64,000 nt of DNA, from NCBI RefSeq assembly GCF_900102025.1, contig NZ_FNAU01000009.1, forward strand, positions 1 through 64,000, in the 5' to 3' direction. Source of the DNA: Actinobaculum suis. GTDB taxonomy: Bacteria; Actinomycetota; Actinomycetes; Actinomycetales; Actinomycetaceae. Position numbers and translations under genes: made by a program. Every line of letters starts with the position of its first letter. The first letter of the stretch is position 1. Shown in pieces: positions 8,015 to 49,900 of this stretch. The notes below the pieces were generated by a model that saw only the letters and a program-made list of their open reading frames with translations, was not told the origin of the DNA and made no database searches.

Positions 8015-10179
<2,165 letters not shown>

Positions 10180-10191
10180 CGAATCGCCCGT

Positions 10192-11607
10192 TTAGAACCT
10201 CCGGTCTGATGCTTGGCGCAGTGCTTCCATGGTGGCCGCGTCCGGGAACTGCCGGATTTCGTAGCGCGGCGGCCAAATGCCTTCCGCCGGCCGGATTCCT
10301 TCCGGCCATACGTCGCGGGCAATATCCAGGCGGATAGTAACGGTCGAGTTCGAACCGGCAGGTGCGGCGTCGTCGGTAAACGAAACATACTCCGCATCCC
10401 CGGGGATCGAGCCGTGTTCGTAGGAACGCAACCACCTCGTAGTGGTTATCGTGCGCCCGCGCACCTCGTGAGTGGAGAAAGCGGCGAGCGTACCATCCTG
10501 GTTTGGCCAGTTTTGCATGTACTTTTTCTGGTTCCGGTAGATGCGTTCACGGAAAGTGCCGCGCAGTTCCGAAAGGATCGGGTAGGAGGGATCGTCCGGG
10601 AGGGGGATCCACTCTGCCCAGCCGTCCGCCGCCACCGTGTGCGGGAGCGGGTAGATAACGCCGCGTTGATTGACCGTCTGCCGGAATGTGCGGAATAAGT
10701 TCGGCAGATACGGATCATTTGCCATAACAATTAGCAACCGCGAACGGGTGGCGGGAATGAAAAGCGGGAAAGTCTCAGGGTTTTCTTCGCTCAAAGAGCG
10801 CGCCACCGCCTGGATGAGGTCCAAATCCGCAAACCACGAACTTTCATAATTGGGTGGCCCGGTGAAAATCATGACGCGAGCTCCAGCTTCGCGAGTTACC
10901 CCCAGCTCCAAACCGCGTTTGCCTAAATTGTGGTTGAGCTGGCGCAATGCACTCACCGACTCGCCAAAATGCGCCCCGAGATCCGTAGCGGAACGATCCA
11001 AACCCAGGTCCGAAAAATATAGGGGCACAATGTTTTCTGGCGTGTCGCGCGCCAGGCCTACGCCCACAAAATCCGTGAGTGGAATGTAAATTAACGAATC
11101 GTCCTGCGAATCATCGTGTGTGCGAATAAAATAATCCGCCGCACGCACGATCGGCAAGGTGAGCGTAGAACCGTCAAAGGGGTCATTTTCCGACGACGTC
11201 GCCGTCACCTCCGCGGAACCCTGGGCCGGGTGCGGGGACGGGATTGAGATCTCCTCAAAAGCGGGCGGCTTCGCCCCCGAAATGCCAATTGAAATCAACC
11301 TATCCAAAAGCTTTTTACGCTCGGCTTCCGGTGCATCCTCGCGAATCATCTGGAAGGGACGGAAACGGAAGGTACGGCCATCGGGCAGCAGAAAATCGAG
11401 CCATTCGCCGTCCGCGTTTACCAACGCACCTTGGAGTTCTGGATGGTGGGCCGCAACATCGAGGGCCCAATTCATTAGCGACATAGGGTTATTCTTCCAG
11501 ATCTGCGCCCGCCGCGGGCCAAAGGCTTTGTGGTGTTCGGTGCGCAACGGGCCGCCACGCGTGGGCGCCAGGTTCTCGCGCTGTCCGCCGGTGCCCGGTT
11601 TTGCCAT
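10192..11607 (-). CDS. Conserved hypothetical protein, possibly DUF1444-like
   Basis: A 471-residue soluble protein I do not firmly recognise. The central part (residues about 145-280) includes IYIPLTDFVGVGLARDT, ENIVPLYFSDLGLDRSAT and PNYESSWFADLDLIQ, a pattern loosely like the DUF1444 (YtpQ) family. The C-terminal 120 residues, rich in aromatic residues, look like a separate beta domain. No catalytic motif, signal peptide or membrane helix is seen. The frame is open to 11682, but the longer start would overlap the promoter of the divergent FHA gene, so the ATG at 11607 is preferred. It ends 12 bases from the convergent tgt stop. Confidence 0.55.
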   Translation of the reverse strand: MAKPGTGGQRENLAPTRGGPLRTEHHKAFGPRRAQIWKNNPMSLMNWALDVAAHHPELQGALVNADGEWLDFLLPDGRTFRFRPFQMIREDAPEAERKKLLDRLISIGISGAKPPAFEEISIPSPHPAQGSAEVTATSSENDPFDGSTLTLPIVRAADYFIRTHDDSQDDSLIYIPLTDFVGVGLARDTPENIVPLYFSDLGLDRSATDLGAHFGESVSALRQLNHNLGKRGLELGVTREAGARVMIFTGPPNYESSWFADLDLIQAVARSLSEENPETFPLFIPATRSRLLIVMANDPYLPNLFRTFRQTVNQRGVIYPLPHTVAADGWAEWIPLPDDPSYPILSELRGTFRERIYRNQKKYMQNWPNQDGTLAAFSTHEVRGRTITTTRWLRSYEHGSIPGDAEYVSFTDDAAPAGSNSTVTIRLDIARDVWPEGIRPAEGIWPPRYEIRQFPDAATMEALRQASDRRF

Positions 11608-23302: not shown

Positions 23303-24583
23303 TTAGTGATGCTGTAAATACTGCTGGTAGCAGTGGATGGCCGCGCCAATCAAGGGCGCTTTGCCGCCGAGCGTGCCGCGTGCCAAAGGCACTTCACGCA
23401 CCGGAGTCATTGCGGATTCGGCAAAGCCCGCGGCTAGTGCCTCTCTCCACACCGTGCCGGCTTGGGTTACCGAACCGGATAGAACGATTACGTCTGGATC
23501 TAAACAGTTTGCCAAACCGGCAATAACCTGCCCGAGAGCTCGGGCAGAATCCTGTAAGACCGCGGCTGCGAACTTGCTTCCGGCAGCGGCTCGCGCCGCT
23601 ACTTCGCCCCCGCCGCTCACTTCCCGTGGATAGTCTGCCTGGTGACCAGGGACCGGTTGCTCGGGTGCCGGCTGCTCAGGCGCCGCACTCGTGGTACTCG
23701 ACTGCGGGGTGGCCGGTTCAGCCGATGCCTCCGGTTCAGCAGGCGCGGTGCGGCCGGTATAGCTAGCGGCCCGCCAGGGCGCTGCGGCCAAAGCGTTCGC
23801 CGGGTCCTGTGCAGCGGGGTCCTGTGCGGCCGGGTCTTGCGCGGCGGCGCGTTTGGCCCAGAGCCGGGCCAGGCCGGAGCCGGAGGCCACTGATTCTATG
23901 TGGGATTCGCGCCCGCAAGAACAGGTAAGCCCGGCGGCCAAGGGGTGGTAGACGTGCCCAAAATGGCCGGATACTCCGCGCGCCCCGCGATGTACTTGGC
24001 CGTCGAATACGGCTGCCCCGCCCATGCCGGTGCCGATGGCAAAAACCAGCGCGGTGCGAGCGCCGCGTGCGGCCCCGAAACTGGCCTCTCCTAATGCGTG
24101 CCCGTGCACATCATTGAGCACCGCGACGGGCAAGTGGCAAGCTTCGCGCAAGGCCGCTCCCAGGGGTTGGCCGGCCCACCCGGGCATGGTATCCGTGGCC
24201 GAAGCAATCGCTCCGTCTGCTTCCGCGATTACTCCGGCGGAAGAAACTCCAATACCTTGCGGCTCTAGCCCGGCCTCTCGGGCCTGCGCGAGTAGATCTT
24301 GCGCAAAATCCACCACGGTTTCCAATACTGCCGCCCCGCCGCGGCTTGCCTGCGTGGCAACCGAACTGAGTAGATGCACTTCGGGCACGTCCGGAGCCGG
24401 CAAAACTACAAGGCCGCCAGCAATTTTCGTGCCCCCTATGTCTAAGGCTAGAAAACAATGTGGCCCGCTCGCGGGGGTATGCGTAGCTGCGGGGGCAGGT
24501 GCAGCCGCGGGGGCAGGTGCAGCCGCGGGGGCAGGTGCAGCCGCGGGGTTAGGAGCGGCGGCGGACGGCGTCGTGGAACTCAT
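23303..24583 (-). CDS. nanK: N-acetylmannosamine kinase (ROK family) with low-complexity inserts
   Basis: A 426-residue ROK kinase that phosphorylates ManNAc. ATP-binding DIGGTK is at residues 48-53 and the catalytic aspartate is in LNDVHGHALGE. The zinc site reads CSCGRESHIE, so the third cysteine of the CxCGxxGCxE motif is a histidine. Compared with the usual 290-310 residues it has two additions: an N-terminal 42-residue Ala/Pro repeat and an insert of about 75 residues after SGLARLW that starts with QDPAAQDPAAQDPA and continues rich in Pro/Ala/Glu/Ser. Start at 24583 with GGGGAG upstream. First gene of the nanK-nanE unit, divergent from the importer operon, sharing the regulatory region 24584-25120. 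Confidence 0.88.
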   Translation of the reverse strand: MSSTTPSAAAPNPAAAPAPAAAPAPAAAPAPAATHTPASGPHCFLALDIGGTKIAGGLVVLPAPDVPEVHLLSSVATQASRGGAAVLETVVDFAQDLLAQAREAGLEPQGIGVSSAGVIAEADGAIASATDTMPGWAGQPLGAALREACHLPVAVLNDVHGHALGEASFGAARGARTALVFAIGTGMGGAAVFDGQVHRGARGVSGHFGHVYHPLAAGLTCSCGRESHIESVASGSGLARLWAKRAAAQDPAAQDPAAQDPANALAAAPWRAASYTGRTAPAEPEASAEPATPQSSTTSAAPEQPAPEQPVPGHQADYPREVSGGGEVAARAAAGSKFAAAVLQDSARALGQVIAGLANCLDPDVIVLSGSVTQAGTVWREALAAGFAESAMTPVREVPLARGTLGGKAPLIGAAIHCYQQYLQHH

Positions 24584-25120: not shown

Positions 25121-26710
25121 ATGCGAAAAGGCATCTTTAGCACGAAGGTTGCCGCAGTCCTTGCCGCCGCAGCGCTGGCGCTAACAGCGTGTGGCGGAGG
25201 TAGCGGCAAGACGGAAGGCACGGCGGACGCCTCCGGCTCCGCCGGTACTAGCGAAGCAACGCAGACCGGTACGATCACCGCTGGTGCCGCCTACGAAACC
25301 ACGGATTACAACCCCACCAGTACCTCCTCGGCACTGGCTATGGGCACCAACTGGCACGTGGTTGAAGCACTGTACTCCTACGATTCTGACTTCAATATTC
25401 GTAAGGAGCTGGCCGCGGATGACACCCCGGTCGAAGTATCCGATACCCAGTACGAAGTGAAGATTCGGCCCGATGCGGCCTTCTCCGATGGCACTCCGGT
25501 GACGGCCGATGATGTTATTGCCTCCTTCGAAAAGGCAATGGCTCCCGAAAACCTGTACGCGTCCATGCTCTCCTCCGTGAAGAACGTAGAGAAGAAGGAC
25601 GATTCCACCGTCACGATTAACCTCAACCATCCCTTCACGCTGCTCAAGGATCGCTTGACGGTCGTGAAGATTGTGCCGAAGTCCGCCACTGCGGACGAGC
25701 TGAAGGCCAAGCCGGTTGGTTCGGGCCCGTGGAAGTACGATTCCATTACCGATACCGGTATTGAAATGTCTCCGAACGAGCACTACAACGGCCCCTTCCC
25801 GGCCAAGGGTGCGCATATGCATTGGGACATCATCAAGGACGATAACGCTCGTACCACCGCCGCTCAGGACGGCACGATTGCCGTAATGGAAGCGGTACCG
25901 GCTGACCGTATCGAACTGCTGGAAGCTGCTGGCCTGAAGGTCGAAGAAAAGCAGGGCTTCAACCTGCCCTTCCTGCTCTTCAACACCAGCAAGGCACCCT
26001 TCAATGACGCGCGGGTCCGCCAAGCCTTCCATTACGCAATCGATACTCAGAAGCTGATCGCGAACGCGATGGACGGCAAGGCGAAGGAAGTTACCGGCTT
26101 CCTGCCCGAAACCTCGCAGTACTACAACAAGGCTAAGGTCCAGTACACCTACAACCCAGAAAAGGCGAAGGAACTTCTGGCCGAAGCTGGCGTATCCGAT
26201 CTTTCGATCACCTTGCAGAGCACGGATCACCCGTGGATTGAAGCTCTTGGGCCCCAGATCAAGAACGATCTGGAAGCTGTGGGCGTGAAGGTAGAACTCA
26301 ACGCGCAGGCTTCCGCCTCGCTCTACTCGAACAACCTCGACGTCGATAATGCAACCTTCGATGTGGCACTCGCCCCGGGCGATCCTTCGGTATTCGGCAA
26401 CGATCCAGACATGCTTATCCGCTGGTGGTACGGCGATAACCTGTGGACGCAGCGCCGCTCCTTCATGCAGAAGGGCGAACCGGAGAAGTTCCAGGAGCTG
26501 CAGAACCTGCTTGATGAAGCAGTGCGGCTGGAAGGCGATGCCCGCCAGGCCAAGTGGAATGAAGCCATGGATCTCGTAGCCGAAGAAGCCGTGATCTACC
26601 CGCTCTTCCACCGCACCATGATCACCGCTTACAACCCGGAGCTCGTGGAAGGTGTAACGCCGGTGACCACCACCGGTCTGAACCTGCTGACGGCAAAGCC
26701 GCTCGAATAG
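25121..26710 (+). CDS. Family-5 solute-binding lipoprotein, probable sialic-acid binding (SatA/SiaE-like)
   Basis: A 529-residue extracellular lipoprotein that delivers the ligand to the ABC permeases encoded next. The signal peptide MRKGIFSTKVAAVLAAAALA ends in the lipobox LTAC, so the cysteine at about residue 24 is lipidated. The mature protein is of the peptide/nickel-binding family: VRPD-like KIRPDAAFSDGTPVTADDV, VGSGPWKYDS, FNTSKAPFNDARVRQAFHYA. By family it could bind peptides, but its operon with nanA, as in Haemophilus ducreyi sat and Corynebacterium sia loci, points to sialic acid. An AGAAGAGGAC sequence precedes the start. First gene of the five-gene operon. Confidence 0.85.
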   Translation: MRKGIFSTKVAAVLAAAALALTACGGGSGKTEGTADASGSAGTSEATQTGTITAGAAYETTDYNPTSTSSALAMGTNWHVVEALYSYDSDFNIRKELAADDTPVEVSDTQYEVKIRPDAAFSDGTPVTADDVIASFEKAMAPENLYASMLSSVKNVEKKDDSTVTINLNHPFTLLKDRLTVVKIVPKSATADELKAKPVGSGPWKYDSITDTGIEMSPNEHYNGPFPAKGAHMHWDIIKDDNARTTAAQDGTIAVMEAVPADRIELLEAAGLKVEEKQGFNLPFLLFNTSKAPFNDARVRQAFHYAIDTQKLIANAMDGKAKEVTGFLPETSQYYNKAKVQYTYNPEKAKELLAEAGVSDLSITLQSTDHPWIEALGPQIKNDLEAVGVKVELNAQASASLYSNNLDVDNATFDVALAPGDPSVFGNDPDMLIRWWYGDNLWTQRRSFMQKGEPEKFQELQNLLDEAVRLEGDARQAKWNEAMDLVAEEAVIYPLFHRTMITAYNPELVEGVTPVTTTGLNLLTAKPLE

Positions 26711-26824
26711 TAGCGAGCCCCTTCCGGGTGCTCGAAATTCAGGATCCCGTGTAAAACGCTGCGGAGGGGCGGTAAGCACAGCTTCCGCCCCTCCGCAGTG
26801 TCAGGGAACTGAGGAGTAACGCAT

Positions 26825-27784
26825 ATGAACAACGTCATCAGACTCGTTGGTCGAAGGTTGGTGGCACTACCGCTCATGATCCTGGGCGTGGTGTTCCTGG
26901 TCTTCTTCCTCATGTCTTTCTCAAAAATTGACCCCGCGTATTCGGCACTGGGAGAAAACTCCACCGAAGCGCAACGGGAAGCTTTCCGGATTTCCCAAGG
27001 TCTCGATAAACCCTGGCTCATCCAATTCCTGGCCTTCCTAGGCGGAATGTTCCGCGGCAGCCTCGGCGTGTACGGGGTACGCCAAGATTCTGTAGCCGAA
27101 CTGGTGGGGCAAGCTTTCCCCATCACCATGCAACTCACCTTCTTTGGTTTGCTCATCGCTATTGTGGTGGCTTTCCCGCTGGGCGTTTTGGCAGCTCTCT
27201 ACCGAGACCGCTGGCCCGATAAGGTGATCCGCGTGCTCTCCATCGCCGGGATTGCCACTCCTTCCTTCTGGCTCGGCATTTTGCTCATCGTCTGGATGGG
27301 CCCGGGAGGCGCAAACATATTGCCCGTTTCTGGCCGCCTGCCAGCAATGACGGACAATTTTGGGGGATGGTTCCTCCGTATGCTTCTACCGGCCGTGGCG
27401 CTCGCCGTGCCCGTGATTGGTTCTCTTACCCGCGTGATTCGTACTTCGATGGTGGAAGAACTGGATTCGGACTATGTGCGTACCGCTTTGGGCGCCGGCA
27501 TTCCGAAGACGGTAGTGGTGGCCCGCAATGTTTTGCGCAATGCGCTGATCACGCCGGTCACGGTACTTGGCTTGCGAGTCGGCTACCTGATGGGCGGCGC
27601 CGTGGTCATTGAAGTTATCTTCAACCTGCGCGGCATGGGACGCGTGATCGTAGACGGCATTACCAATAATTGGACTTCGGTCGTCCAGGGCGTGGTGCTC
27701 GTGGTTGCGATCGCCTTCATCATCGTGAATATCGTGGTTGATCTGCTCTACATTGCGATCAATCCGAGGATTAGGTCGGTGTAA
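26825..27784 (+). CDS. ABC transporter permease, DppB type (SatB-like)
   Basis: A 319-residue inner-membrane protein with six hydrophobic segments. The first is IRLVGRRLVALPLMILGVVF; the coupling helix EAA loop that contacts the ATPase is YVRTALGAGIPKTVVVARNV. It forms half of the translocation channel, with the membrane part of the next protein as the other half. GAGGAG stands eight bases before the ATG. It is 114 bases behind the binding-protein gene and two bases before the next gene. Length and motifs are normal for the family. Confidence 0.9.
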   Translation: MNNVIRLVGRRLVALPLMILGVVFLVFFLMSFSKIDPAYSALGENSTEAQREAFRISQGLDKPWLIQFLAFLGGMFRGSLGVYGVRQDSVAELVGQAFPITMQLTFFGLLIAIVVAFPLGVLAALYRDRWPDKVIRVLSIAGIATPSFWLGILLIVWMGPGGANILPVSGRLPAMTDNFGGWFLRMLLPAVALAVPVIGSLTRVIRTSMVEELDSDYVRTALGAGIPKTVVVARNVLRNALITPVTVLGLRVGYLMGGAVVIEVIFNLRGMGRVIVDGITNNWTSVVQGVVLVVAIAFIIVNIVVDLLYIAINPRIRSV

Positions 27785-27786
27785 CG

Positions 27787-29877
27787 ATGGGACGCAAAAA
27801 GCTAACCAAGAAACTAGAAAACAAGCCGGTACGCTTCCGGCGTTTCCGGGCGATGTCCTGGGGAGCTCGCATCTCCTTGCTCGTGATCCTCGCGATCATT
27901 CTCATCGCTATCTTCGCCAACTTCCTCGCCCCGCACGATCCGCTGGAGATCTTCACCGCCAAGCAGGGCCCTTCCGGAGAACACCTCTTCGGTACGGACG
28001 ATAAGGGCCGCGATGTGCTCTCGCGCGTTATGTACGGTGGTCGATACTCGCTAGTAGTAGGCTTTGTAGCCCTCTTCATTGCCGTCCTATTCGGCTCGAT
28101 TATCGGTGCAACCGCCGCGGTTTCCCGCAAGTGGGTATCCGAACTCATCATGCGGTGCATGGACGTCGTAATGGCTATCCCCGGTATCGCCCTGGTAGCG
28201 GTATTCGTGGTGGTCTTCGGTAACTCCCTCCTCAGTATTTCCATCTCAATCGGGGTGGTTTACATACCCCAGCTAGCCCGCGTGGTACGTGCCAATGTGC
28301 TTTCCGAATACGGCGAGGACTACGTGCGCGCGGTTATCGTTTCCGGTGCGCGAGCACCCTGGATTTTGATCAAGCACGTGGTGCGTAACTGCGCGGCACC
28401 GGTAATGGTATTCGCAACCGTGCTGGTGGCAGACGCGATCGTGCTGGAAGCTTCGCTTTCCTTCATCCAGGCCGGCATTCAAGAACCGACTCCCACCTGG
28501 GGCAATATCCTTTCCGATGCGCAAGGCGGCGTGATGGCCGGGCGCTGGTGGCAGGCACTATTCCCCGGCTTGGCCATTATGATCACCGTGCTGTGCCTGA
28601 ATATCCTTTCCGAAGGCATCACGGACGCCATGGTGGTGGCCCCGAAGGGTCAGAGCTCGGTAGACGAAACCGCCGGGGCCGAATCTCGTTCCGAAGCCGA
28701 CCGGCTGATCGCCGATCCGGTGCTCGCTTACAAGGCGCAGCACGAAGCGCTCGTGGAACGGCTCGCCCGCTTGCGGTACGTGGAATCCAAACGGACCGAT
28801 CGCTTCCTGCCCAGCGGCGAAGGCGAACCGGTTATCCAGGTCAAGGACCTGTGCATTCGCTTCCCCCGGCACGGCGATATCGACGTCGTCGATCACGTTT
28901 CCTTCGCGGTACGCCCCGGAGAAACAATGGGGCTCGTGGGCGAATCCGGGTGCGGCAAGTCGATTACTGCCTTCTCCATCATGGGGCTGTTGCCCCAGGA
29001 GGCAACAGTTTCCGGCGAAATCAGGTACGGAGATAAGAACCTTGTGGGCATGGACCCCAAGGAACACAACCAGCTCCGCGGCAATGAAATCGCCATGATC
29101 TACCAGGATGCGCTTTCCGCTCTCAACCCCTCGATGCTGATCAAGACACAAATGAAGCAGCTGACCAGCCGGGGCGGTACCCGGAGCGCGGAAGAACTGC
29201 TGGAACTGGTAGAGCTCGATCCTAAGCGCACGCTCGAATCGTATCCGCATGAACTTTCGGGTGGGCAGCGCCAGCGCGTACTGATCGCTATGGCGCTCAC
29301 CCGCGATCCGAAGTTGCTTATCGCTGATGAACCGACGACGGCGCTCGATGTGACCGTGCAACGCCAAGTGATTGACCTGCTCAACCGGCTGCAAGAAAAG
29401 CTCGGGTTCGCGATGATCTTCGTTTCGCACGATCTGGCACTCGTGGCCGAAGTTGCTAACTACATCACCGTGATGTACGCGGGGCAGGTAGTGGAGCAGG
29501 CCTCTACGAAGGAACTGCTCATGGATCCGCGCCACGAATACACGCGCGGCCTGCTCGGCTCCGTACTTTCTATCGAGGCTGGCTCCGGCCGGCTCCACCA
29601 AGTGCCCGGAACCGTGCCTTCCCCGAAGGATTTCCCCTCCGGAGATCGCTTCGCGCCGCGTTCCTCGCACCCCACGGTGGGACTTACAACCAAGCCCACG
29701 CTCCTGCGCGTACCCGATACCTGGCACTTCTACGCCGGGCATCCGGAAGCCGGAGAAGTGGCGCAGAAGGAATACGTGGATCCGCTCCTCGTTAGCACCG
29801 GTAAAGAACCGGGCCGGCGCGCTGCGGATGAAACCGGCGAATCCAGCCCCACGCAAACGGGAGAGGAGCCACAGTAA
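27787..29877 (+). CDS. ABC transporter permease-ATPase fusion (SatC-like)
   Basis: A 696-residue fusion. Residues about 1-290 are a DppC-type permease with the N-terminal cytoplasmic segment, six membrane helices and EAA loop DYVRAVIVSGARAPWILIKH. Residues about 345-690 are a DppD-type ATPase: Walker A GESGCGKSI near 383, signature LSGGQRQR near 490, Walker B LLIADEPTTALD, and an oligopeptide-type C-terminal domain. A 45-residue linker joins them. The same fusion is known in the SatC component of the H. ducreyi sialic-acid transporter, which supports the substrate assignment. The ATG follows the previous stop by two bases. The lack of cysteines in the C-terminal part means no iron-sulfur motif of the DppD kind. 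Confidence 0.9.
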   Translation: MGRKKLTKKLENKPVRFRRFRAMSWGARISLLVILAIILIAIFANFLAPHDPLEIFTAKQGPSGEHLFGTDDKGRDVLSRVMYGGRYSLVVGFVALFIAVLFGSIIGATAAVSRKWVSELIMRCMDVVMAIPGIALVAVFVVVFGNSLLSISISIGVVYIPQLARVVRANVLSEYGEDYVRAVIVSGARAPWILIKHVVRNCAAPVMVFATVLVADAIVLEASLSFIQAGIQEPTPTWGNILSDAQGGVMAGRWWQALFPGLAIMITVLCLNILSEGITDAMVVAPKGQSSVDETAGAESRSEADRLIADPVLAYKAQHEALVERLARLRYVESKRTDRFLPSGEGEPVIQVKDLCIRFPRHGDIDVVDHVSFAVRPGETMGLVGESGCGKSITAFSIMGLLPQEATVSGEIRYGDKNLVGMDPKEHNQLRGNEIAMIYQDALSALNPSMLIKTQMKQLTSRGGTRSAEELLELVELDPKRTLESYPHELSGGQRQRVLIAMALTRDPKLLIADEPTTALDVTVQRQVIDLLNRLQEKLGFAMIFVSHDLALVAEVANYITVMYAGQVVEQASTKELLMDPRHEYTRGLLGSVLSIEAGSGRLHQVPGTVPSPKDFPSGDRFAPRSSHPTVGLTTKPTLLRVPDTWHFYAGHPEAGEVAQKEYVDPLLVSTGKEPGRRAADETGESSPTQTGEEPQ

Positions 29878-30737
29878 TGACGGGACAACGCATCGCCTCC
29901 GCGGATGAACTTGCGCGGATCGAAAGCGGGGAACCGCTCATCGAACTCAAGGACGTGGAGGTCAGCTTCACCACCCGTACCGGGAGTATTTTCCGGCCGA
30001 ATAAGGTCCATGCCGTACGCGGCGTGAACCTGAAGCTCTTCCCCGGGGAAACGATCGGTATCGTGGGTGAATCCGGGTCCGGAAAATCCACTACCGCAAA
30101 CGTGATGTGTGGCCTGCAGCAGGCCACCGGCGGAAAAGTATTTTTCCGCGGGAAAGACGTCACACACCGTAACGCGAAGCAACGCAAAGTTATCGGGCGC
30201 GTGGTTTCCGTGGTCTTCCAAGATCCGGCAACCGCTCTCAACGCCCGCATGAGCGTGCACGATCAGCTGCTTGATCCCCTGCTTGTGCACAAGATTGGCG
30301 ACGCCGAATCGCGGGAAAAGCGGGTGCGGGAACTGATCTCCTTCGTGGGACTACCCGAATCGGCACTGCAGGCTTTGCCGGGCCAGTTATCTGGTGGGCA
30401 ACGCCAGCGCGTGGCTATTGCCCGTGCCCTTTCGATTGAACCGGATGTGATCATTGCTGATGAGCCGACTTCCGCGCTGGATGTTTCCGTGCGCGCCCAG
30501 ATTTTGAACTTGCTTTCAGATCTGAAGACGGAGCTCGGCATGTCCATGGTGTTCATCTCGCACGATATTCAAACTGTCCGCTATATATCAGACCGGATCG
30601 CCGTGATGAACCGCGGTGAATTCGTTGAAGAAGGCCCTGCTGAACAGGTTCTTCATAACCCGAAGGACGAGTATACGAGGACCCTCCTCGCAGCCACCCC
30701 GTCTCTTCTACACCCCGACTTGGGAGGAAACAAATAA
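29877..30737 (+). CDS. ABC transporter ATP-binding protein, DppF type (SatD-like)
   Basis: A 286-residue ATPase, the second motor subunit of the importer. Walker A GESGSGKSTTAN lies near residue 63, the Q-loop in VFQDPATALNARM, the signature [12 protein letters not shown] near 170, Walker B VIIADEPTSALD, and the switch histidine in FISHD. The ATG overlaps the previous stop (TAATG), so the two ATPase domains are made in equal amounts by coupling. The protein is shorter than usual DppF because the C-terminal oligopeptide domain is brief (ends SLLHPDLGGNK). Confidence 0.9.
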   Translation: MTGQRIASADELARIESGEPLIELKDVEVSFTTRTGSIFRPNKVHAVRGVNLKLFPGETIGIVGESGSGKSTTANVMCGLQQATGGKVFFRGKDVTHRNAKQRKVIGRVVSVVFQDPATALNARMSVHDQLLDPLLVHKIGDAESREKRVRELISFVGLPESALQALPGQLSGGQRQRVAIARALSIEPDVIIADEPTSALDVSVRAQILNLLSDLKTELGMSMVFISHDIQTVRYISDRIAVMNRGEFVEEGPAEQVLHNPKDEYTRTLLAATPSLLHPDLGGNK

Positions 30738-31658
30738 ATGGCTGAGCAACGATTTAGGGGAGTGATCCCGCCGGTAATTACCCCGCTTACAGCCGCGCGC
30801 GAGTTCGACGAAAAGTCTTTCGAGAACAATGTGAAGCGGATGCTGGAAGCAGGAGTGCACGGTCTCTTCTTCCTCGGTTCCACCGGTGAAGTAGCTTTTG
30901 CTACCGCGCAGCGGCGCCGCGAGGTGCTTGAAGCTGCCGTGCGAGTAGTGGACGGGCGCGTGCCCGTACTAGCCGGGATCGTGGATATTCAAACGGACCG
31001 GATGGTCGAAAATGCTCGCGAAGCGCAAGCTATCGGAGTAGACGCGATCGTAGCTACCGCGCCGTTCTACGCCCTCAGTTCGGAAAAGGAAGATGAAGCA
31101 AACTTCCGCGCCATTCACGACGCCGTAGATTTGCCGCTCTTCGCCTACGACCTGCCCGTATGCGTCCACAAGAAGCTTGGCATTGATCTCGTCATGCGGC
31201 TTGCAAAAGACGGTGTACTGGCCGGCGTGAAGGATTCTTCCGGCGACGACGTAAACTTCCGCTATCTGTGCGCGGCGAACCAGGAAGCTGGTTCTCCGCT
31301 GTCCGTGATGACCGGGCACGAAGTAGTGGTAGATGGCGCCTACATGGCGGGAGCGGACGGTTCGGTGCCGGGCCTGGCAAATGTGATCCCACGGCCCTAC
31401 GTGGAACAGTGGGAAGCTTTCCAAGCCGGCAACTGGGAAAAAGTGCGAGAAATTCAAGACTACCTGGCGCGAGTCATGCGCGTAGCTTTGGTAGCGAAAG
31501 CTACCCGCGGTTTTGGCGTTGGAGTAGGCGGGTTCAAGACGGCGCTCATGCTCATGGGCGTAATCGAATCGAACCAGATGCCGCGCCCGGTGGAAGCACT
31601 GGAAGGCGAGGATATGGAGGCTGTTCGCCACATCCTCACCGCGGAGGGGCTCCTCTAA
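30738..31658 (+). CDS. nanA: N-acetylneuraminate lyase
   Basis: A 306-residue TIM-barrel aldolase that splits N-acetylneuraminate into pyruvate and ManNAc. FLGSTGE (45-51) has the serine typical of NanA rather than the threonine pair of DapA, tyrosine 137 in FAYDLP and the Schiff-base lysine 165 in AGVKDSSGD are present. Members of the family with other substrates exist, so the assignment also rests on the nanK, nanE and nagB neighbours. The ATG comes directly after the ATPase stop codon, making it the last gene of the importer operon. A hairpin follows at 31790-31832. Confidence 0.9.
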   Translation: MAEQRFRGVIPPVITPLTAAREFDEKSFENNVKRMLEAGVHGLFFLGSTGEVAFATAQRRREVLEAAVRVVDGRVPVLAGIVDIQTDRMVENAREAQAIGVDAIVATAPFYALSSEKEDEANFRAIHDAVDLPLFAYDLPVCVHKKLGIDLVMRLAKDGVLAGVKDSSGDDVNFRYLCAANQEAGSPLSVMTGHEVVVDGAYMAGADGSVPGLANVIPRPYVEQWEAFQAGNWEKVREIQDYLARVMRVALVAKATRGFGVGVGGFKTALMLMGVIESNQMPRPVEALEGEDMEAVRHILTAEGLL

Positions 31659-32350: not shown

Positions 32351-32416
32351 GAATAGCAAAGTAGTGCGAGCCAGCGGGACAGCAGCGCACAGAAGTACGA
32401 GGTGAGGGGGAGAGTT

Positions 32417-33262
32417 ATGGCAAAGAAGCGTGTAACTACGGAGACGGAAAGCAATGCGCCGCGGGAAGAAAACAGCGCCGAGAATAGCAAATACGAAGGC
32501 ACACAGGATAGCGAGTTGGCGCTGTTAGCGGTAGAAGCGGTAACGGGCCCGCGAAAGAAAGCTTCCCACCGGGCGGATATCGTCATGAACTCGATCAAGT
32601 CTTATATCGTGCAACACAAGCTTTCGAGCGGTGACCCACTTCCTACCGAAGCACAGCTGTGCGAAGAATTGGGGGTTTCGCGTTCTTCGGTGCGCGAAGC
32701 ACTCTCGAAACTGGAAGCTTTGGACGTGGTTTCTTCCCGGCAGGGAAGAGGCACGGTAGTGGGGCAAATGTCTTTTACTCCGCTGGTGGAAACTTTGCTC
32801 TTGCGGGCCACTATCGAAGAGGGCCCGGATGCAGAAGCAATCCAAAAGATTGTGGATATGCGCCGCTATCTCGATTTGGGGATGAGTACCGATATTGTGG
32901 CGGCTCTGCGGGGAACCAAAAACCAGGATTTGCGGCAAATCGTGGAAAACATGAAGGAGAAAGCGCTCCGCGGGGAACGGTTCTGGGAGGAAGATATCCG
33001 CTTCCATATCGGCCTGACCGAATCTCTGGATAATGGTGTGGCTTCCCAAATGGTTACGGCCTTGTGGGTGGTGCATTGCATCTCCATGCAAGATATTGGG
33101 ACCGAAGGCAATCCCCAAATGTTGGAGACTGCGCGTGCCCACGAACGGATTTTGGACGCCGCGGAAGCTGGCGATATTTTCGCGTACCGCGGGGCCATAA
33201 ACGACCACTACCGGCCCCTCGAAAGCATTATCGAAGCCCATACCCTCCGCCACTACGCGTAG
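32417..33262 (+). CDS. GntR-family regulator, FadR subfamily (NanR-like)
   Basis: A 281-residue DNA-binding protein. The first 45 residues are charged and unstructured. Residues about 55-120 are the GntR winged helix (DIVMNSIKSYIVQHKLSSGD, LCEELGVSRSSVREALSKLE, SSRQGRGTVVG). Residues about 130-280 are an FCD domain, helical, with metal-ligand candidates in DIRFHIGLTES and RAHERILDAAEAGD. The GAGGGGGAG site precedes ATG 32417. Position between nanA and the glycohydrolase cluster, and a motif shared with the nan promoter region, make it the likely sialic-acid regulator; it may instead or also control the genes downstream. Confidence 0.85.
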   Translation: MAKKRVTTETESNAPREENSAENSKYEGTQDSELALLAVEAVTGPRKKASHRADIVMNSIKSYIVQHKLSSGDPLPTEAQLCEELGVSRSSVREALSKLEALDVVSSRQGRGTVVGQMSFTPLVETLLLRATIEEGPDAEAIQKIVDMRRYLDLGMSTDIVAALRGTKNQDLRQIVENMKEKALRGERFWEEDIRFHIGLTESLDNGVASQMVTALWVVHCISMQDIGTEGNPQMLETARAHERILDAAEAGDIFAYRGAINDHYRPLESIIEAHTLRHYA

Positions 33263-33393: not shown

Positions 33394-34572
33394 ATGACAC
33401 GGCCAGAAAACCCAGAAAACACAGAAAACCCAGAAAACACAGATTTTGCGGAGCTTCAGCTGGATCGCGCCCGGGGTGCACTGTGGGGTTTGGCGCTCGG
33501 GGACGCTCTGGGAATGCCCACCCAGTCCATGTCCCGGCAGGCGATCCGCGAAACCTACGGAAAAATATCTGGGTTCGTGGCAGGTGCTGCGAACCAACCG
33601 ATAGCACCGGGAATGCCTGCCGGCTCGGTAACCGACGATACGGATCAAGCCCTTATTCTCGGCAGGCTGTTAATAGCCGGCGAGGGGCACGTAGCGCCCC
33701 TTGATTTTGCTACTGCTCTCATGGAGTGGGAAGAAAAAATGATCGCGGCCGGCTCTAATGACCTACTTGGCCCTTCCACTAAACGCGCCCTGGAAGCACT
33801 TCGCGCCGGAGCTTCGCCGCACGAAACCGGAAAGGCTGGCACCACAAATGGTGCGGCCATGCGAGTAGCACCCGTAGGAATCGCGAACTCTCTTGCCGAA
33901 CCAGCAAGTTTCCTCGCCGCCGTGGCCGAATCGTGCAGCGTCACCCACAATACGAACCTCGGGATTTCCGGTGCGGCCGCCATTGCCGCCACAATTTCCG
34001 CCGCCATCGATAGCCCGGCGCCGGCCGCGCCTGCTAAGTTTGCCGCGCCTGCTACGCCCGCCGTGTCTGCCAAGCCTGCCGTGTCTGCCAAGCTTGCCGT
34101 GCCTGCCAAGCCTGCCGCGCCTGCTACGCCCGCCCAGATTTCGCGGGCTTTGGATGCCGGCCTGGCTTGTGCTTACGAGGCCGAAAAGCTCGGTACCTGG
34201 TGTGAAGGGGCGTCCATTCCGGCGCGTTTTGCACATGCCCGCACACAGGTAAAAGGTATGTCCGAAACCGAATTTGGCGACTATCTAGCCCACGTGGTTG
34301 GCACTTCGGTGGCTTCCCAAGAATCAGTAGTGTGTGCCCTGCTGATCGTGGAACATTTCGGCACGCAAATCATTCGCGGGCTCACTTTTGCGGCCGAACT
34401 GGGCGGGGATACAGATACTATCGGCGCCATGGCCGGAGCAATCTTCGGCGCCCTGTGTGGATTTTCCGCCCTACCCCCGAACATGGTGGAAACCATGAGC
34501 AGCGTACAAAACCTTGATATCGACGCCGTCGCCACCGGCCTCCTAGCCTTACGTAAACCCCGCGCTGCGTAA
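33394..34572 (+). CDS. ADP-ribosylglycohydrolase family protein (YegU-like)
   Basis: A 392-residue hydrolase of the ARH/DraG fold, which cleaves N- or O-glycosidic bonds to ribose with two Mg ions. Metal-site motifs are LGDALGMP, AGSVTDDTDQALI and the late ELGGDTDTIGAMAGAIFG. An Ala/Pro/Lys-rich insert of about 45 residues built on AKPAVSAKLAVPAKPA splits the middle. The N-terminus (PENPENTENPENT) is itself a repeat. The GC-rich start region lacks a strong ribosome-binding site. It is followed by an NCS1 permease and a PfkB kinase, like the E. coli yegTUV set, so it probably opens a transported ribosyl compound rather than acting on proteins. Confidence 0.85.
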   Translation: MTRPENPENTENPENTDFAELQLDRARGALWGLALGDALGMPTQSMSRQAIRETYGKISGFVAGAANQPIAPGMPAGSVTDDTDQALILGRLLIAGEGHVAPLDFATALMEWEEKMIAAGSNDLLGPSTKRALEALRAGASPHETGKAGTTNGAAMRVAPVGIANSLAEPASFLAAVAESCSVTHNTNLGISGAAAIAATISAAIDSPAPAAPAKFAAPATPAVSAKPAVSAKLAVPAKPAAPATPAQISRALDAGLACAYEAEKLGTWCEGASIPARFAHARTQVKGMSETEFGDYLAHVVGTSVASQESVVCALLIVEHFGTQIIRGLTFAAELGGDTDTIGAMAGAIFGALCGFSALPPNMVETMSSVQNLDIDAVATGLLALRKPRAA

Positions 34573-34680
34573 TTCTCGCACTACGTAAATCTCGCACTGT
34601 TACGTAAACCCCGCGCTGCGTAATTCTCGCACTACGTAAATCTCGCACTGTTACGTAAACCCCGCGCTGCGTAATTCTCG
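34549..34680. repeat. 51-bp tandem repeat overlapping the stop codon
   Basis: Units begin at 34549, 34600 and 34651 (TTACGTAAACCCCGCGCTGC), exactly 51 bp apart; the third is partial. The first unit contains the last codons and stop of the ADP-ribosylglycohydrolase gene. Each unit holds a smaller inner duplication (CTACGTAAATCTCGCACT). Confidence 0.95.
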
Positions 34681-34778
34681 GTAGGATACAGCTCAAACCC
34701 AACTAGAGCTCAAAAGCACGAAAATCTGCGCCAAAAACAAGCGAAAAATCCGAGCTCAAAACGTACGAAGGACTTCTT

Positions 34779-36458
34779 ATGAATACGCCGTCTGGAACCG
34801 GCGAATCTACATCTAGCTCGCCATTACCTAGCCAGCAGCCAATGCCTAGCCAACCACTGCCTAACCAGCCCGCCGGCGGCGAGCCCGCGCTCAATTCGGC
34901 CGCACCCAGCCAGCCCGCACCCGGCTCACTGGCACTCGGCCAGCCCGCATCCGGTTCACCCGCGCCCGGCCGCACGCTAAGCGCGGTGGAACAGCGCGGG
35001 ATCGAACCGGTGCCGCGTTCCGAACAAACCGGAAATCCCTGGCAATTATTCTGGGTCTGGTTCGCCGCGAACATTTCCGTGCTCGGCCTCCCCTTGGGAG
35101 TCTCGCTCGTGGCTATGGGGCTCAATGTTTGGCAGGCCATGCTCGCTGCTGTGTTGGGGGCTTGCGGTTCGTTCGCCGTCGTCGGCATTATTTCGGTGGC
35201 TGGTAGCCGCGGGGGAGCGCCTTCCCTCACGCTTTCCCGCGCGGTTTTCGGGGTGCGCGGTAACTTGGGCCCCACGCTCATGGCGCTCCTTTCTCGGCTT
35301 GGCTGGGAAACCGTGAACACCTCCACCGCGGCGCTCGCTTTTGTCACTTTCTGTTCGCTGGTATTTGGCACCCCCGGTACCGCGCGGCAAACCCCGCTCC
35401 TCGCAGTAGTGGGCGTGCTCCTTTTCGTGCTTCTCACCATGATCATTTCCGGGCTGGGCATAAACGCGATAAACGAAGTACAGAAATGGTCAACCTGGAT
35501 TTTTGGTGCCCTCAACCTCGTGATTTTGGTATACCTGCTCACCCGGATTGACTGGGCTGGCGTGCTGAGTTTGGAAGGCGGTTCGGTGGCGCAAGTGATC
35601 GCCGGAATTGGCGTGATCGCCGCCGGCACCGGGATCGGCTGGTCCACTTCCGGGGCCGATATGGCACGCTACCAGTCGCCGCTGGTGCGAGCCGGCCATT
35701 TGGTGGCTTCTGCCGCGGCCGGCGCTGGTATTCCGCTCATCATTATGATTTCCATGGGCGCGGTGATTGGTTCTTCCAGTCCCGCCGTGCTCGCCTCCCC
35801 GAATCCGATGGATACGATCCGCGAATCTCTACCCACCGCGGCTGCCGCCATCTACCTGTTCATTTCCTTCGTTGGCCTGCTGCTCTCAAATCATTTATCG
35901 GTGTATTCGGCAGGGCTGAATTGGATCACCATGGGTGTGCGGATCAAACGCACCACCGCGGTGCTCATCGAAATTGCGATTACCACCGTGCTCGCCCTCG
36001 TATTCCTCCTCGCTGCCGAAAACTTCTACGACCCCTTCATCGCTTTCATTTCCGTGCTCGCCCTCCCGCTTTCCGCGTGGACGGCGGTGTTCCTGGTTGA
36101 CATGATTAAACGCCGCAGCTACAAACGTGATTCCCTACTCGACCTCACCCCCGCTAGCCCGTACTGGTATCGCGGTGGCGTGCGGTGGCGTGCGTTTGCT
36201 GCCTGGATTATCGGCACGGTAGTGGCCTTCCTCTTCATCGAAATCCAGTGGAGCGGGAGCGGAGGGGAAGCCACTGGCGTGGCACAAAGCGTCCAAGAAG
36301 TTTTGTTCGTGGGCCCCCTCGCGCACACGTGGATTGGCGAGGCTGGCCTAGGGTGGCTGGTTGCCGGCGTGGTAGCGGCCGTCGTCTTCCTCCTTTGCGG
36401 TGGCTTACGTGATTACGACGCCGTAGATACCGCCCCGGCCACCACCGCAGAAAACTAG
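34779..36458 (+). CDS. NCS1-family nucleobase/nucleoside:cation symporter
   Basis: A 559-residue permease with about twelve hydrophobic segments. The first 75 residues are a Pro/Ser/Gln-rich tail. The core starts at NPWQLFWVWFAANISVLGLP, and GIGWSTSGADMARYQ corresponds to the substrate-site helix of cytosine/purine permeases, while SRGGAPSLTLSRAVFGVRGN is the conserved loop after helix 2. Substrates of the family include cytosine, purines, allantoin, hydantoins and thiamine precursors; with its neighbours, a nucleoside-like compound is likely. GAAGGA lies before the ATG. It stands 206 bases behind the glycohydrolase and 21 before the kinase. Confidence 0.87.
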   Translation: MNTPSGTGESTSSSPLPSQQPMPSQPLPNQPAGGEPALNSAAPSQPAPGSLALGQPASGSPAPGRTLSAVEQRGIEPVPRSEQTGNPWQLFWVWFAANISVLGLPLGVSLVAMGLNVWQAMLAAVLGACGSFAVVGIISVAGSRGGAPSLTLSRAVFGVRGNLGPTLMALLSRLGWETVNTSTAALAFVTFCSLVFGTPGTARQTPLLAVVGVLLFVLLTMIISGLGINAINEVQKWSTWIFGALNLVILVYLLTRIDWAGVLSLEGGSVAQVIAGIGVIAAGTGIGWSTSGADMARYQSPLVRAGHLVASAAAGAGIPLIIMISMGAVIGSSSPAVLASPNPMDTIRESLPTAAAAIYLFISFVGLLLSNHLSVYSAGLNWITMGVRIKRTTAVLIEIAITTVLALVFLLAAENFYDPFIAFISVLALPLSAWTAVFLVDMIKRRSYKRDSLLDLTPASPYWYRGGVRWRAFAAWIIGTVVAFLFIEIQWSGSGGEATGVAQSVQEVLFVGPLAHTWIGEAGLGWLVAGVVAAVVFLLCGGLRDYDAVDTAPATTAEN

Positions 36459-36479
36459 TTCCTTTGCAGGAGGAAAATA

Positions 36480-37859
36480 ATGTACGACGCCGTCCCTCCA
36501 GCCGCGGCCACTACCGGCCGCAGTAGTGGAGCCGCTCCCACCGCGAACAACCGTGCCAACCCGGGCTCCCGAGATGTGCACAAGACTGCGGGCCGGTTTA
36601 TAAATACCGGTCAAGCAATTGTGGACGTGGTAATGCGGGTAGACCGCGTGCCGGAACCGGGTGGGGATGTTTTTGCTGCGAAGCATACTTTGCTGGCGGG
36701 CGGAGATTTTAACGTTATGGCGGCCGGGGCGCGGGCTGGCGCCAGCGTGGTCTATGCCGGCAGCTATGGCCAGGGGGTTTATGCCGATATTGTGCTGGCT
36801 GCCTTGCGGGAAGAAAATATCGAGGTTTTGGCCGCGCCGGTACCGGATATGGACACCGGATTTTGCGTGGCCCTGGTAGATAACCAGGCCGAACGCACTT
36901 TTATTTCGACCGTGGGTGCGGAAGGGGTAATAAGCCCGGGTCAATACGCGCTAGCCGCACCCGGCCCGCAAGACGTGGTTTACATTTCCGGCTATTCCTT
37001 GGTGCATGAAGCAAACCGAACGGAACTCCAACGCTGGTTGGCGGCCGGGATTTCCGCGCGCGTGCTCTTTGACCCGGCCCCGGTAGTAGCGGAGATCCCC
37101 GAGCCGGCCCTCACTGCCGTGCTAGCCCGCGCCGATATTGTGACGGCTAATGCGCGGGAAGCACAGATCTTGCTCACCCGCCTGGGCGCGGCACCGGCCG
37201 GCGCGGAAACAGCTGCTGCTCGCGCGGCGCTAGCGGAGCAAACAGATCCGGCCGGCGCGGAAGAAAAACCTACCGAAGCTGTTTTGCTCGGGCGGGCCCG
37301 CCAGCTCAGTGCGGCAACCGGTGCGGCGGTGGTATTGCGGGCCGGCGGCGCCGGCGTTGCCCTAGCCCTGCCGGGTAAACCGGATGCCGCAACCTCGCAC
37401 CTGGCAGATGCTAGGGGAGCGGCAGAAGCTACATGCACGGCGGGAGTTACGGGCGCGGCTGATGCTACTGACGCGGCCGATGTGGCGGGCGCGGTAAAAA
37501 CTACAGGTACGGCAAAAGTTCCGACCGTACCGGCAACCTCTTTCCGAGGGGGTGGATCTTCGTTCCGAGGGAATAGCTCACCGGAGCAAATCCGGGCGAT
37601 TTTTGTGCCGCCGCTACGCGTTACCGCTGTTGATACGAATGGTGCGGGCGACGCCCATGCCGGAGTTTTAGGAGCCGGTTTGTGCCGCGGGGAAAGCCTC
37701 GGATTAGCCTGCGCCCGGGCCGGGGTGGCCGCCGGGATCGCGGTGACTCGCGAAGGGCCTGCTACCAGCCCGCGGCTGGCAGAACTCAACGCGGCCTACG
37801 CGCAGTGGCGTACCGAAATCGGCCCGGAGCGTGCTAACACCCTCGAAACATTTGGCTAA
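36480..37859 (+). CDS. PfkB-family carbohydrate kinase (YegV-like)
   Basis: A 459-residue sugar kinase. The first PfkB signature region is GGDFNVMAAGARAGASVVYA, and the second, containing the catalytic base, is DTNGAGDAHAGVLGAGL. The N-terminal 38 residues and about 75 residues before the second signature (rich in Ala/Thr/Asp, from TSHLADARGAAEATC) are additions; usual members have 300-330 residues. The substrate is probably ribose or a ribosyl compound released by the adjacent glycohydrolase. The start has an ideal GGAGGAAAATA leader and follows the permease closely, so they form one operon. A 19-bp repeat follows the stop codon. Confidence 0.87.
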   Translation: MYDAVPPAAATTGRSSGAAPTANNRANPGSRDVHKTAGRFINTGQAIVDVVMRVDRVPEPGGDVFAAKHTLLAGGDFNVMAAGARAGASVVYAGSYGQGVYADIVLAALREENIEVLAAPVPDMDTGFCVALVDNQAERTFISTVGAEGVISPGQYALAAPGPQDVVYISGYSLVHEANRTELQRWLAAGISARVLFDPAPVVAEIPEPALTAVLARADIVTANAREAQILLTRLGAAPAGAETAAARAALAEQTDPAGAEEKPTEAVLLGRARQLSAATGAAVVLRAGGAGVALALPGKPDAATSHLADARGAAEATCTAGVTGAADATDAADVAGAVKTTGTAKVPTVPATSFRGGGSSFRGNSSPEQIRAIFVPPLRVTAVDTNGAGDAHAGVLGAGLCRGESLGLACARAGVAAGIAVTREGPATSPRLAELNAAYAQWRTEIGPERANTLETFG

Positions 37860-46923: not shown

Positions 46924-49900
46924 CTAGCGCTCTTCGGTTTCGAGTTCGGCGAGTTTGCGTTCGATCCGTTTCACAGAAACCTTGCCCTTGGTACCGAGCT
47001 GCTGAGCGAACAGGGAAACTCGCAGTTCCTCCACCATCCATTTCGCTTCTTCCAAAATCCGGGCGGCCCGCGGCGAATATTCTTGGTACTCCAGTTTTTG
47101 CCGGGCACGCGCGATTGCCTCGCGCGCTTCTTGCACTTGCCAAGCCAAAGAATCATCGCCGAGCGGATTATATTGGGCCTTTTCGATCCGGTATTTTGCG
47201 GCTTGCAGGTAGCGCGGCAAATCCCAGAACCGTTCCGGCGGGGTAGCGGCCACAAAATTCGGCGGCATCAAAGTATTCATATGTTCGCGTTCATCGGCCA
47301 CAGTAGCCAACAAAGCCACCGAGGAAGATTCGCGAATCAGCTTCTCCACTTCCGCCCAAGCCTGCGTGGCCTGCGCGGCGCCTTGCGCGAGCAAAAACAC
47401 TTCGTCTTCAAACTCGTCCCGCGCCCACAAAGTCAATTCCGTGAACTGGCTCCCGGAACGAATATCTGCCACCGTAAGATCCTGGCTTTTCGCCCAGCGT
47501 AACGCCAAGTTGCGCGTAGCCGCCCACTGCAAATCCGCCACCAGCGCACTGGTCGAAGCTGCCGGAGAAGCCGCTAACAGCAGCGAAGTTTCCCCATCCC
47601 AGCGGGAAGTAATCCGCGCCTCCGGGAGGGCCAAAGTATTCGCCGCCAAACGGATCACGCCGCCGCGGTGTACCCGTACCTGTTCCCCGGGGGAGGCGAC
47701 GACGTCCAAATACACCTTGCCTTCCCGGTCCGCCAAAGCCGGATAAGCCCGCACCACTGTGCCATGCGGTCCGGCAGTTTCCAATACGAGCGGAAGCTTG
47801 CCATCCGCAGCAGAAGCATCCGACGCGGAAGAAAGCGTGGCAGAAGCACCCGTAGCGGAGGAAGGCATGGCAGAAGCACCCGTAGCGGAGGAAGGCGTGG
47901 CAGAAGCATCCGACGCGGAAGAAGGCGTGGGCCACTGCGTGAGCGGCTCCTCGCTCTGCGTGGCCACCGGGAGGCTACGCCGCGCTTCGTCTAGAGCTTG
48001 GGCCACGGCCCCGGCCACCACGGTTTCTACCGCGTGCTGGGATTGCGGGGCCAGATCGTGCTTGAGTTTTTCTAAAGAACTACCTTCCTCGAGGACGGCA
48101 CCCCGTTCAGACACAATCCGGAAATGCATCCGCAAATGCTCGGGCAAATCCAGTTCCGCCCAGGCGGCGTCGTCGATCTCTACGCCCCGCAAACGCAAAG
48201 CGACCTGCGTGAAAGCTTCCCGGAAACTCGGAGCACCGGCCTGCCCGTGGGCCACATCCTCCCACGCGGGTAAGAGCGGCAAGATTTCGCGCGCAGTATC
48301 GGGGGCGGGAACCAGTTGGCGGCGCACGCGTTTCGGTAGACCGCGGATCGTGCCGATCACAAGCTCATCGAGCATTCCGGGCACGAGCCAATCAAAACCG
48401 GCTTCCGTAACCTGCGGCAATACCGAAACCGGGATTTCCACAGTGATTCCATCCGCGTAAGAATCCGGGGAGAAACTATATTCCAGCGGGAAGGTTAGTT
48501 CGCCTTGCTGCCACTGGCCCGGATAGTCGTCTGCCGCGGCGCTTTGCCCGCCCAGTAAGAATTCTTGCGTGAAATCCAGAAGATGTTCGTTCTCTTGGCG
48601 GGCTTTCTTCCACCAAGAATTAAAATGCCCGGCAGAAACCACGTGCTGGGGGATCCGCTCCGCATAAAACTTGGCCCGCGCAGACTCATCAGCCACCAGC
48701 CCATGTTGGCGTAGTTTCGATTCGGTTTCATATGCCTGGGCAAGTGCTTCCTGGTTGCGGTCTTGGAAATCGTGCCGGCCGCGCCAATCACCTTCCACCA
48801 GAGCGTGTTCAATAAACATGCTCCGGGCAAGTTCTCGGCCGCCGGGCGTACCGGTTTTGGAAAGCAAAACCGGCCGGTCAGCAATGAGCGTGAGCCCATA
48901 CAGGGTCACTTTTTCTTTGCACATGGCGGCCCCGGCGCGGCTGCTCCAATACGGGTCTGAATAGGAGCGGCGCACCAGATTCTTCGCGGCCGGTTCCACC
49001 CATTCGGGTTTGATGGCCGCCACCGTGCGCGCAAACAGGCGGGAAGTTTCCACCAGTTCAGCGGCCATGACCCAGGCCGGGGTGCGCCGGTGCAAACCAG
49101 AACCGGGCCAAATCACAAAATGCGTGCCCCGCGCCCCGGCATAATCGCGCGTGCGTTCCCGATAGTTCCCAATATTCGAAAGCAAACCCACCAGTAAAGA
49201 CCGGTGGATAGCGCCCGCTTCCGGAGTATCGGCGCTCCGGCCCAAAGTGCGGCAAGCTTCCGCCACCGCGGCCGCTTGCGGCGTACCTCCCGGATTACCC
49301 GCGCCAAGATCATTAGTAATCGCCTCCTGTATCTCGGCAGGACTGGGCAGAGCCAAACGGCGGATTCTGATTCCTAACGGGCGGCACATTTCTTCCAGTT
49401 GGTTTACGACGTCGCACCACTCCCGGAAACGCAGATAGTTCAGAAACTCGGCACGCATGAGACGCCGGAAAGCAGCGCCCGAAAGTTCGCGTTGCTGGGT
49501 GCGCAGGTAACGCCACAAAGTGAGGTAGGAAAGGAAATCGGAAGAAGCAGCGTTGAACCGGGCATGATACTGATCGGCCGCTTGCCGCTTTTCGGTGGGC
49601 CGTTCCCGCACGTCTTGCACGGAAAGTGCGGCCACGATAACCAGCACTTCGGAAGCACAACCGTTACTTTCCGCTTCGATCAACATGCGGCCCAGCCGCG
49701 GGTCGATCGGGAGGCGGGCGAGCCGGTGCCCAACCTTCGTGAGTTTGCGTTGGCCGCCCCGCGAGGCCGGGGTAATCGCATCAATTTCTTCCAATAGTTG
49801 GACGCCGGCCGCCACGGCTTGCCGTTCCGGCGGGTCAATGAACGGGAACTCTTCCACGCTTCCCAAGTTGAGGGAAAGCATTTGCAAAATCACGCTGGCC

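Follow-up and report, generated by a model that had tools for sequence, protein, structure and literature searches.

The window analyzed here, a stretch of 64,000 nucleotides from Actinobaculum suis, belongs to a genome of 2.2 Mb in 38 contigs, with relatives in the Actinomycetota. It carries three genes coding for a hydrolase of the ADP-ribosylglycohydrolase (ARH) fold, a permease and a kinase, which together with their adjoining features are laid out as follows:

32402..33262, + strand: open reading frame of a GntR/FCD (FadR-type) regulator (domain match; better start at 32417), a possible regulator of the cassette
33394..34572, + strand: ARH-fold hydrolase, 392 aa (PF03747, E=1.3e-58)
34549..34680, + strand: perfect 51-bp tandem repeat, 2.6 copies, from the 3' end of the ARH gene into the ARH-NCS1 gap
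34779..36458, + strand: NCS1-family permease (cytosine/purine/allantoin/hydantoin type), 559 aa, presumed importer (PF02133, E=2.6e-60)
36480..37859, + strand: PfkB-family kinase, 459 aa (PF00294, E=1.5e-29)

The reading frames and families of the triad agree exactly with those given in a previous sequence-only reading of this DNA. The NCS1 and PfkB genes are separated by 21 bp with a GGAGG ribosome site, and the 206 bp between the ARH and NCS1 genes are in part occupied by the tandem repeat. For the regulator, the ATG at 32417, preceded by GAGGGGGAGAG, is probably a better start than 32402. A promoter and terminator scan gave no signal above chance, and neither the window nor eight related loci showed a riboswitch that could name the substrate. 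The genome has no ARH-family member other than that of the window, and carries elsewhere a second NCS1 gene and a ribokinase-like PfkB gene (L173). Short tandem repeats are abundant in the window, within and between genes (53 TRF rows in 64 kb; for example 34019-34134, 34549-34680, 34900-34971, 37449-37494, 24470-24548 and 47810-47930), and the ARH, NCS1 and PfkB proteins each have low-complexity Ala/Pro-rich stretches missing in relatives.

The ARH-PfkB neighborhood is not a product of chance. Relatives were fetched by ARH similarity alone, which leaves their neighbors unselected, and a close relative was defined as an ARH scoring over 330 bits. Of the 118 loci whose ARH is a close relative, 115 have a PfkB kinase of the same clade within 4.5 kb, counts that are not independent because many of these loci come from Pseudomonas. 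Two of the three exceptions are contig ends and the other is a split kinase frame. Given that about 4 PfkB matches can be detected in the 2.2-Mb genome, a PfkB neighbor would be expected by chance in roughly 1-2% of cases. Near distant ARHs, those below 200 bits, kinases of this clade were absent (0/10). The sequence-only reading had made its proposal depend beforehand on conservation of the triad in relatives; this conservation is what we found, and the cassette represents a real conserved system. Paired loci range from Actinomycetota to Pseudomonas, Paraburkholderia and rhizobia, and an ARH match at E<=1e-10 occurs in 74 of 200 genomes from the family of the window. The ARH-NCS1-PfkB set occurs in 17 genera or single-record lineages and ARH-PfkB with no detected importer in 12; as the phylum-level searches scored only a few candidates in each genome, frequencies beyond the sampled groups are lower bounds. 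A search for phage or viral copies found none.

The ARH gene precedes the PfkB gene in every gene order found. The order of the window, ARH>NCS1>PfkB, is present in 72 loci, and ARH>PfkB>NCS1 and NCS1>ARH>PfkB were also found. Rhizobia, Paracoccus, Burkholderia and Salinicola carry ARH>PfkB with a four-gene polyamine-type ABC importer, and enterobacteria and their relatives carry YegT>ARH>PfkB. In one genus (8 genomes), ARH and PfkB form a single polypeptide, followed by an MFS gene in the two loci read. The GntR-ARH-NCS1-PfkB loci of Pseudomonas and Paraburkholderia have the same three genes in the same order, with about 40-52% identity to the window proteins, but differ in their regulator, which is of the UTRA type and, in the locus read (L069), overlaps the ARH gene. 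We found no published description of these loci, and the literature search for the ARH-NCS1-PfkB set brought up nothing beyond the GgaR paper and ARH papers on other matters. As a set, the cassette is real, conserved and without description in the literature searched.

Other ARH genes were also observed in the survey. A second, deeper kind, found at L149, L152 and L153 with PfkB-like neighbors and GntR regulators, constitutes another ARH-kinase-importer set; by eye, one of these loci has RbsABC-like and another CUT1-like sugar ABC genes. A fast-evolving subclade, which a quick tree places near the window group (L154, L155, L156, L157 and L163), has no PfkB neighbor, and its function may have changed. 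At L158 and L164, in a different ARH cassette that also branches deeper, two nearby ARH-like genes stand beside a kinase with all the ribokinase residues, a possible true hydrolase-then-ribokinase arrangement unlike that of the window.

The sequence-only reading had likened the triad to the yegTUV genes of E. coli, with another transporter and another regulator, and this likeness is substantiated by our analysis. Both loci have a YegU-branch ARH placed first and a PfkB partner; in E. coli, yegV comes directly after yegU, and genes for an importer and for a regulator of the GntR family (YegW, or GgaR) lie alongside. They differ in that YegT is an MFS transporter of the nucleoside family and GgaR is of the UTRA type, whereas the window has an NCS1 permease and an FCD-type regulator. 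The window ARH aligns end to end with YegU (35% identity, E=7e-53) and the kinase is similar to YegV (28% identity, E=2e-16); comparison of the NCS1 protein with YegT revealed no significant similarity. In trees, YegU and YegV each group with the same two loci (L150 and L151), beside the window group. The branch comprising YegU and the window ARH is set apart from DraG/TTHA-type ARHs (support 100/100), and the cassette kinases are set apart from ribokinase, PsuK and FruK (support 90; 86/71 in a second tree). Across 44 loci, ARH and PfkB distances are correlated (Mantel r=0.89; 0 of 5000 permutations as high, best 0.35), a value that in part reflects species relatedness. This correlation and the shared gene order favor a common ancestry of the E. 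coli and window ARH-PfkB pairs. The independent assembly put forward in the sequence-only reading is not supported: YegU is a full-length homolog, YegV falls with these kinases in the best trees and the gene order is common to both, although AU tests do not reject other deep branchings of YegV (p=0.43) or YegU (p=0.23). The better reading, if not a proven one, appears to be that the pair descends from a common ancestor and has exchanged its importer and regulator, and the window set is best regarded as the form with NCS1 of a wider ARH-PfkB cassette to which yegTUV also belongs. The thiMD genes beside yegW in enterobacteria, recognized by eye, were considered as part of the cassette and rejected as chromosomal company, since they are missing from more distant yegTUV loci. 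At L193 and L196 (about 9579-10919), an extra MFS-transporter-like gene lies between the YegV and YegW homologs.

The FadR-type regulator that the sequence-only reading placed upstream of the triad is present, with GntR and FCD domains, but relatives do not conserve its association with the triad. No regulator adjoins the ARH gene in a relative of the same genus (L033), and other relatives have a GntR protein of the other, UTRA type. Upstream, at 25121-31658, the window carries genes for a peptide-type ABC transporter and, after them, one for a DHDPS-family aldolase, which form a separate operon; the FCD regulator could be part of this operon instead. The operon itself was rejected as a part of the cassette, since in the relative of the same genus a DapA/RNase J pair is all that occupies this place.

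The window ARH scores 199 bits against PF03747 (cut-off 26) and belongs to the YegU/MJ1187-like branch of the fold. It carries the metal motifs TDDT (80-83) and GGDTDT (337-342), and the metal ligands are invariant. The closest matches of its AlphaFold model (pLDDT 88) are MJ1187 (1t5j), DraG and ARH3, and a private insert of Ala/Pro/Lys repeats spans about 210-250. It shares its fold and binuclear metal motifs with DraG, ARH1 and ARH3, but several of their functional residues are not kept. In human ARH3, Glu41 of the Glu flap is needed for activity, and roles have been reviewed for DraG Asp97 and for the adenine-recognizing Glu of the ExxA motif (PMC7050489). The window ARH has Gln44 at the flap position, where 113 of the 115 members of its clade have Gln, and thus lacks the glutamate of ARH3-type enzymes; all 13 members of the YegU clade have Glu. 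YegU further differs from the window ARH by Asn in place of Asp123. The Asp97 position is Leu124, the position of the ExxA Glu (DraG Glu121) is not Glu, and the score against the DraG family TIGR02662 is 95.9 bits (cut-off 337). On the other hand, ARH1 and ARH3 contact the pyrophosphate through aligned His and Gly positions (PMC6309922), and the corresponding His185 and Gly153 are invariant in 128 of 128 kinase-linked loci. Judging from these residues, the adenosine half seems no longer to be recognized in the known way, and a phosphate-bearing ribose could still be. The retained phosphate contacts, taken with the absence of Asp97 and the ExxA Glu, would fit a phosphoribosyl group without its adenosine half.

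The window kinase keeps the catalytic DTNGAGD motif and has a private Ala-rich insert at about 300-370. Ribokinases rank first in fold and profile searches with this protein, and ribokinase TIGR02152 is its best NCBIfam match, at 85 bits against a cut-off of 300. We compared 52 cassette kinases in ribokinase numbering, with true ribokinases as a contrast. Asp16, Gly41, Gly42, Asn46 and Asp255 are retained in all 52. The Lys43 position is a gap in one group (44/44) and Cys in the other (8/8), YegV having Cys where the window kinase has the gap; the Asn14 position is hydrophobic in 52/52, and Glu143 is missing in all but one. True ribokinases, including that of the same genome (L173), retain Asn14, Lys43, Glu143 and the other contacts. 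PfkB kinases of other sugars also lack Lys43 and Glu143, so that their loss speaks against an ordinary ribokinase and does not by itself denote a nucleoside kinase. Asn14, Lys43 and Glu143 hold the ribose in ribokinase (PMC9604405). PsuK has Val instead of Lys43, and one pseudouridine kinase has Ile for Asn14 (PMC9247573). Residues by which both ribokinase and PsuK contact the ribose (PMC9604405, PMC9247573) are retained in the cassette kinases. This pattern suggests that the cassette kinase does not recognize free ribose as ribokinase does, and modestly that it may act on an intact riboside. The SGY loop of the kinase was considered as a derived mark shared with YegV. Other PfkB families have an SGY-like loop, ribokinases being the ones with a deletion, and the mark was dropped for this reason.

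The importers give only hints of the substrate class. The window permease scores 205 bits against PF02133 (cut-off 23.5) and 86 bits against the narrower TIGR00800 (cut-off 353), and its substrate therefore cannot be read off. The ARH-PfkB core is accompanied by NCS1, nucleoside MFS, Bcr/CflA-type MFS or polyamine-type ABC importers, or by none. YegT scores above the cut-off of TIGR00889, a family of nucleoside permeases, and the MFS protein that accompanies the fused form is a member of the Bcr/CflA group and also scores against the purine-nucleoside carrier PunC. At L201 (the same region as L150; 11084-16721), a genome of the window's own family has a YegUV-type ARH-PfkB pair, with a divergent NCS1 gene followed by a purine-nucleoside phosphorylase gene and with an allantoin-permease-like NCS1 gene alongside; glyoxylate-assimilation-like genes were recognized by eye around the pair. 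NCS1 carriers take bases and ureides such as allantoin and, in fungi, some nucleosides. The importers thus hint at bases or nucleosides. However, the importer of rhizobia and Salinicola is of the polyamine and not of the nucleoside type, and ordinary nucleosides are beta-linked. Characterized ARHs are selective for the alpha linkage (PMC7050489); this selectivity and the polyamine-type importers weigh against a plain nucleoside.

The reading that we favor, to which we assign a probability of roughly four in ten, is a riboside-salvage cassette in which the kinase acts first and the ARH second. The NCS1 permease would import a small ribosyl compound, either a nucleoside or a nucleoside-like N-riboside, and the PfkB kinase would phosphorylate its ribose at O5'. 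The ARH, predicted to use two metal ions, would then hydrolyze the ribosyl-5'-phosphate compound to the free aglycone and ribose-5-phosphate, the latter entering the pentose phosphate pathway, and the GntR regulator may switch the cassette on. The ARH-PfkB pair, common with E. coli yegUV, would be the fixed core, and the importer would be exchangeable. Loss of Lys43, Glu143 and Asn14 favors phosphorylation of the intact riboside ahead of cleavage. The Gln at the ARH3 Glu41 position is counted against this reading, the catalysis of the ARH being only predicted. By analogy, PsuT, PsuK and PsuG work in a like manner, by import, action of a PfkB kinase on the intact riboside and action of a glycosidase on the 5'-phosphate, the two enzymes being paired. 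The window cassette would work like this system and is not a member of it: PsuG is not of the ARH family and acts on a C-nucleoside, and a profile search of the window found no PsuG-family match, the paired hydrolase being the ARH.

The outline proposed in the sequence-only reading, import of a ribosyl compound followed by cleavage and phosphorylation, still holds, but its cleave-then-phosphorylate order is doubtful given that ribokinase residues are lost in all or nearly all of the kinases. A hydrolase-first salvage, with the PfkB kinase acting like a ribokinase on the ribose released by the ARH, is in our view somewhat less likely than the kinase-first order. It is consistent with ribokinases being the closest solved structures, folds and NCBIfam match of the kinase, and with the complete ribokinase residues at L158 and L164, which suggest that such logic may exist in the ARH family. 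Against it, nearly all of the 52 kinases have lost or replaced Lys43 and Glu143, with which E. coli ribokinase holds the ribose, and a better ribokinase (L173) is already encoded in this genome. It is improbable that the cassette serves damage repair or detoxification instead of nutrient use, clearing abnormal ribosides such as alpha-anomers or ribosylated amines and guanidines. The alpha selectivity of ARH enzymes (PMC7050489) would agree with this role; polyamine-type ABC importers would suit cationic ribosyl-amines, and NCS1 carriers also take up ureides. However, most cassettes have a dedicated importer, which points to a nutrient that is taken up rather than to damage arising inside the cell, and no repair partner genes were seen at the loci.

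A function linked to glycogen, with a substrate related to ADP-glucose, has been proposed for yegTUV and its repressor GgaR, and we consider it highly improbable here. GgaR represses yegTUV and is freed from DNA by ADP-glucose in vitro, and deletion of ggaR raises glycogen (PMC10819704). Nevertheless, ADP-glucose was a candidate tested and not the outcome of a ligand screen (PMC10819704), and it may be either the real ligand of GgaR or an imitation of that ligand. Moreover, a charged sugar nucleotide would be a poor fit for NCS1 and polyamine-type ABC importers, and the regulator of the window is of a different type. We give least credence, and very little, to protein de-ADP-ribosylation by a DraG/ARH1/ARH3-like enzyme with kinase and permease as chance neighbors. 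The enzyme has the fold and the metal site of DraG and ARH3, but the company of the gene is metabolic, the kinase pairing (115/118) and the ARH-PfkB fusion speak against coincidence, the DraG equivalog score is far from its cut-off (96 against 337), and Asp97, the ExxA Glu and the Glu-flap Glu are lost.

The kinase-first salvage cassette leads to a broader and more tentative proposal, which we hold possible at somewhat less than even odds: that this ARH branch is a metabolic phosphoriboside hydrolase and not an eraser of protein modification, forming with a riboside kinase a widespread, transporter-swappable nutrient pathway that includes yegUV. If so, the ARH fold would act on glycosides of ribose-5'-phosphate, which represent a truncated core of ADP-ribosyl compounds, and the automatic label "ADP-ribosylglycohydrolase" would be misleading for the whole branch if the hydrolase proves to act on small molecules. 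The yegTUV genes, which 5388 of 5426 complete E. coli genomes carry, have long been unexplained. An ARH-PfkB pair that crosses phyla, is fused in one genus and is served by several importers provides handles on them beyond E. coli: fused enzymes that can be assayed as a unit, an ABC binding protein that can be screened for ligands, and differing residues from which the order of the steps is predicted.
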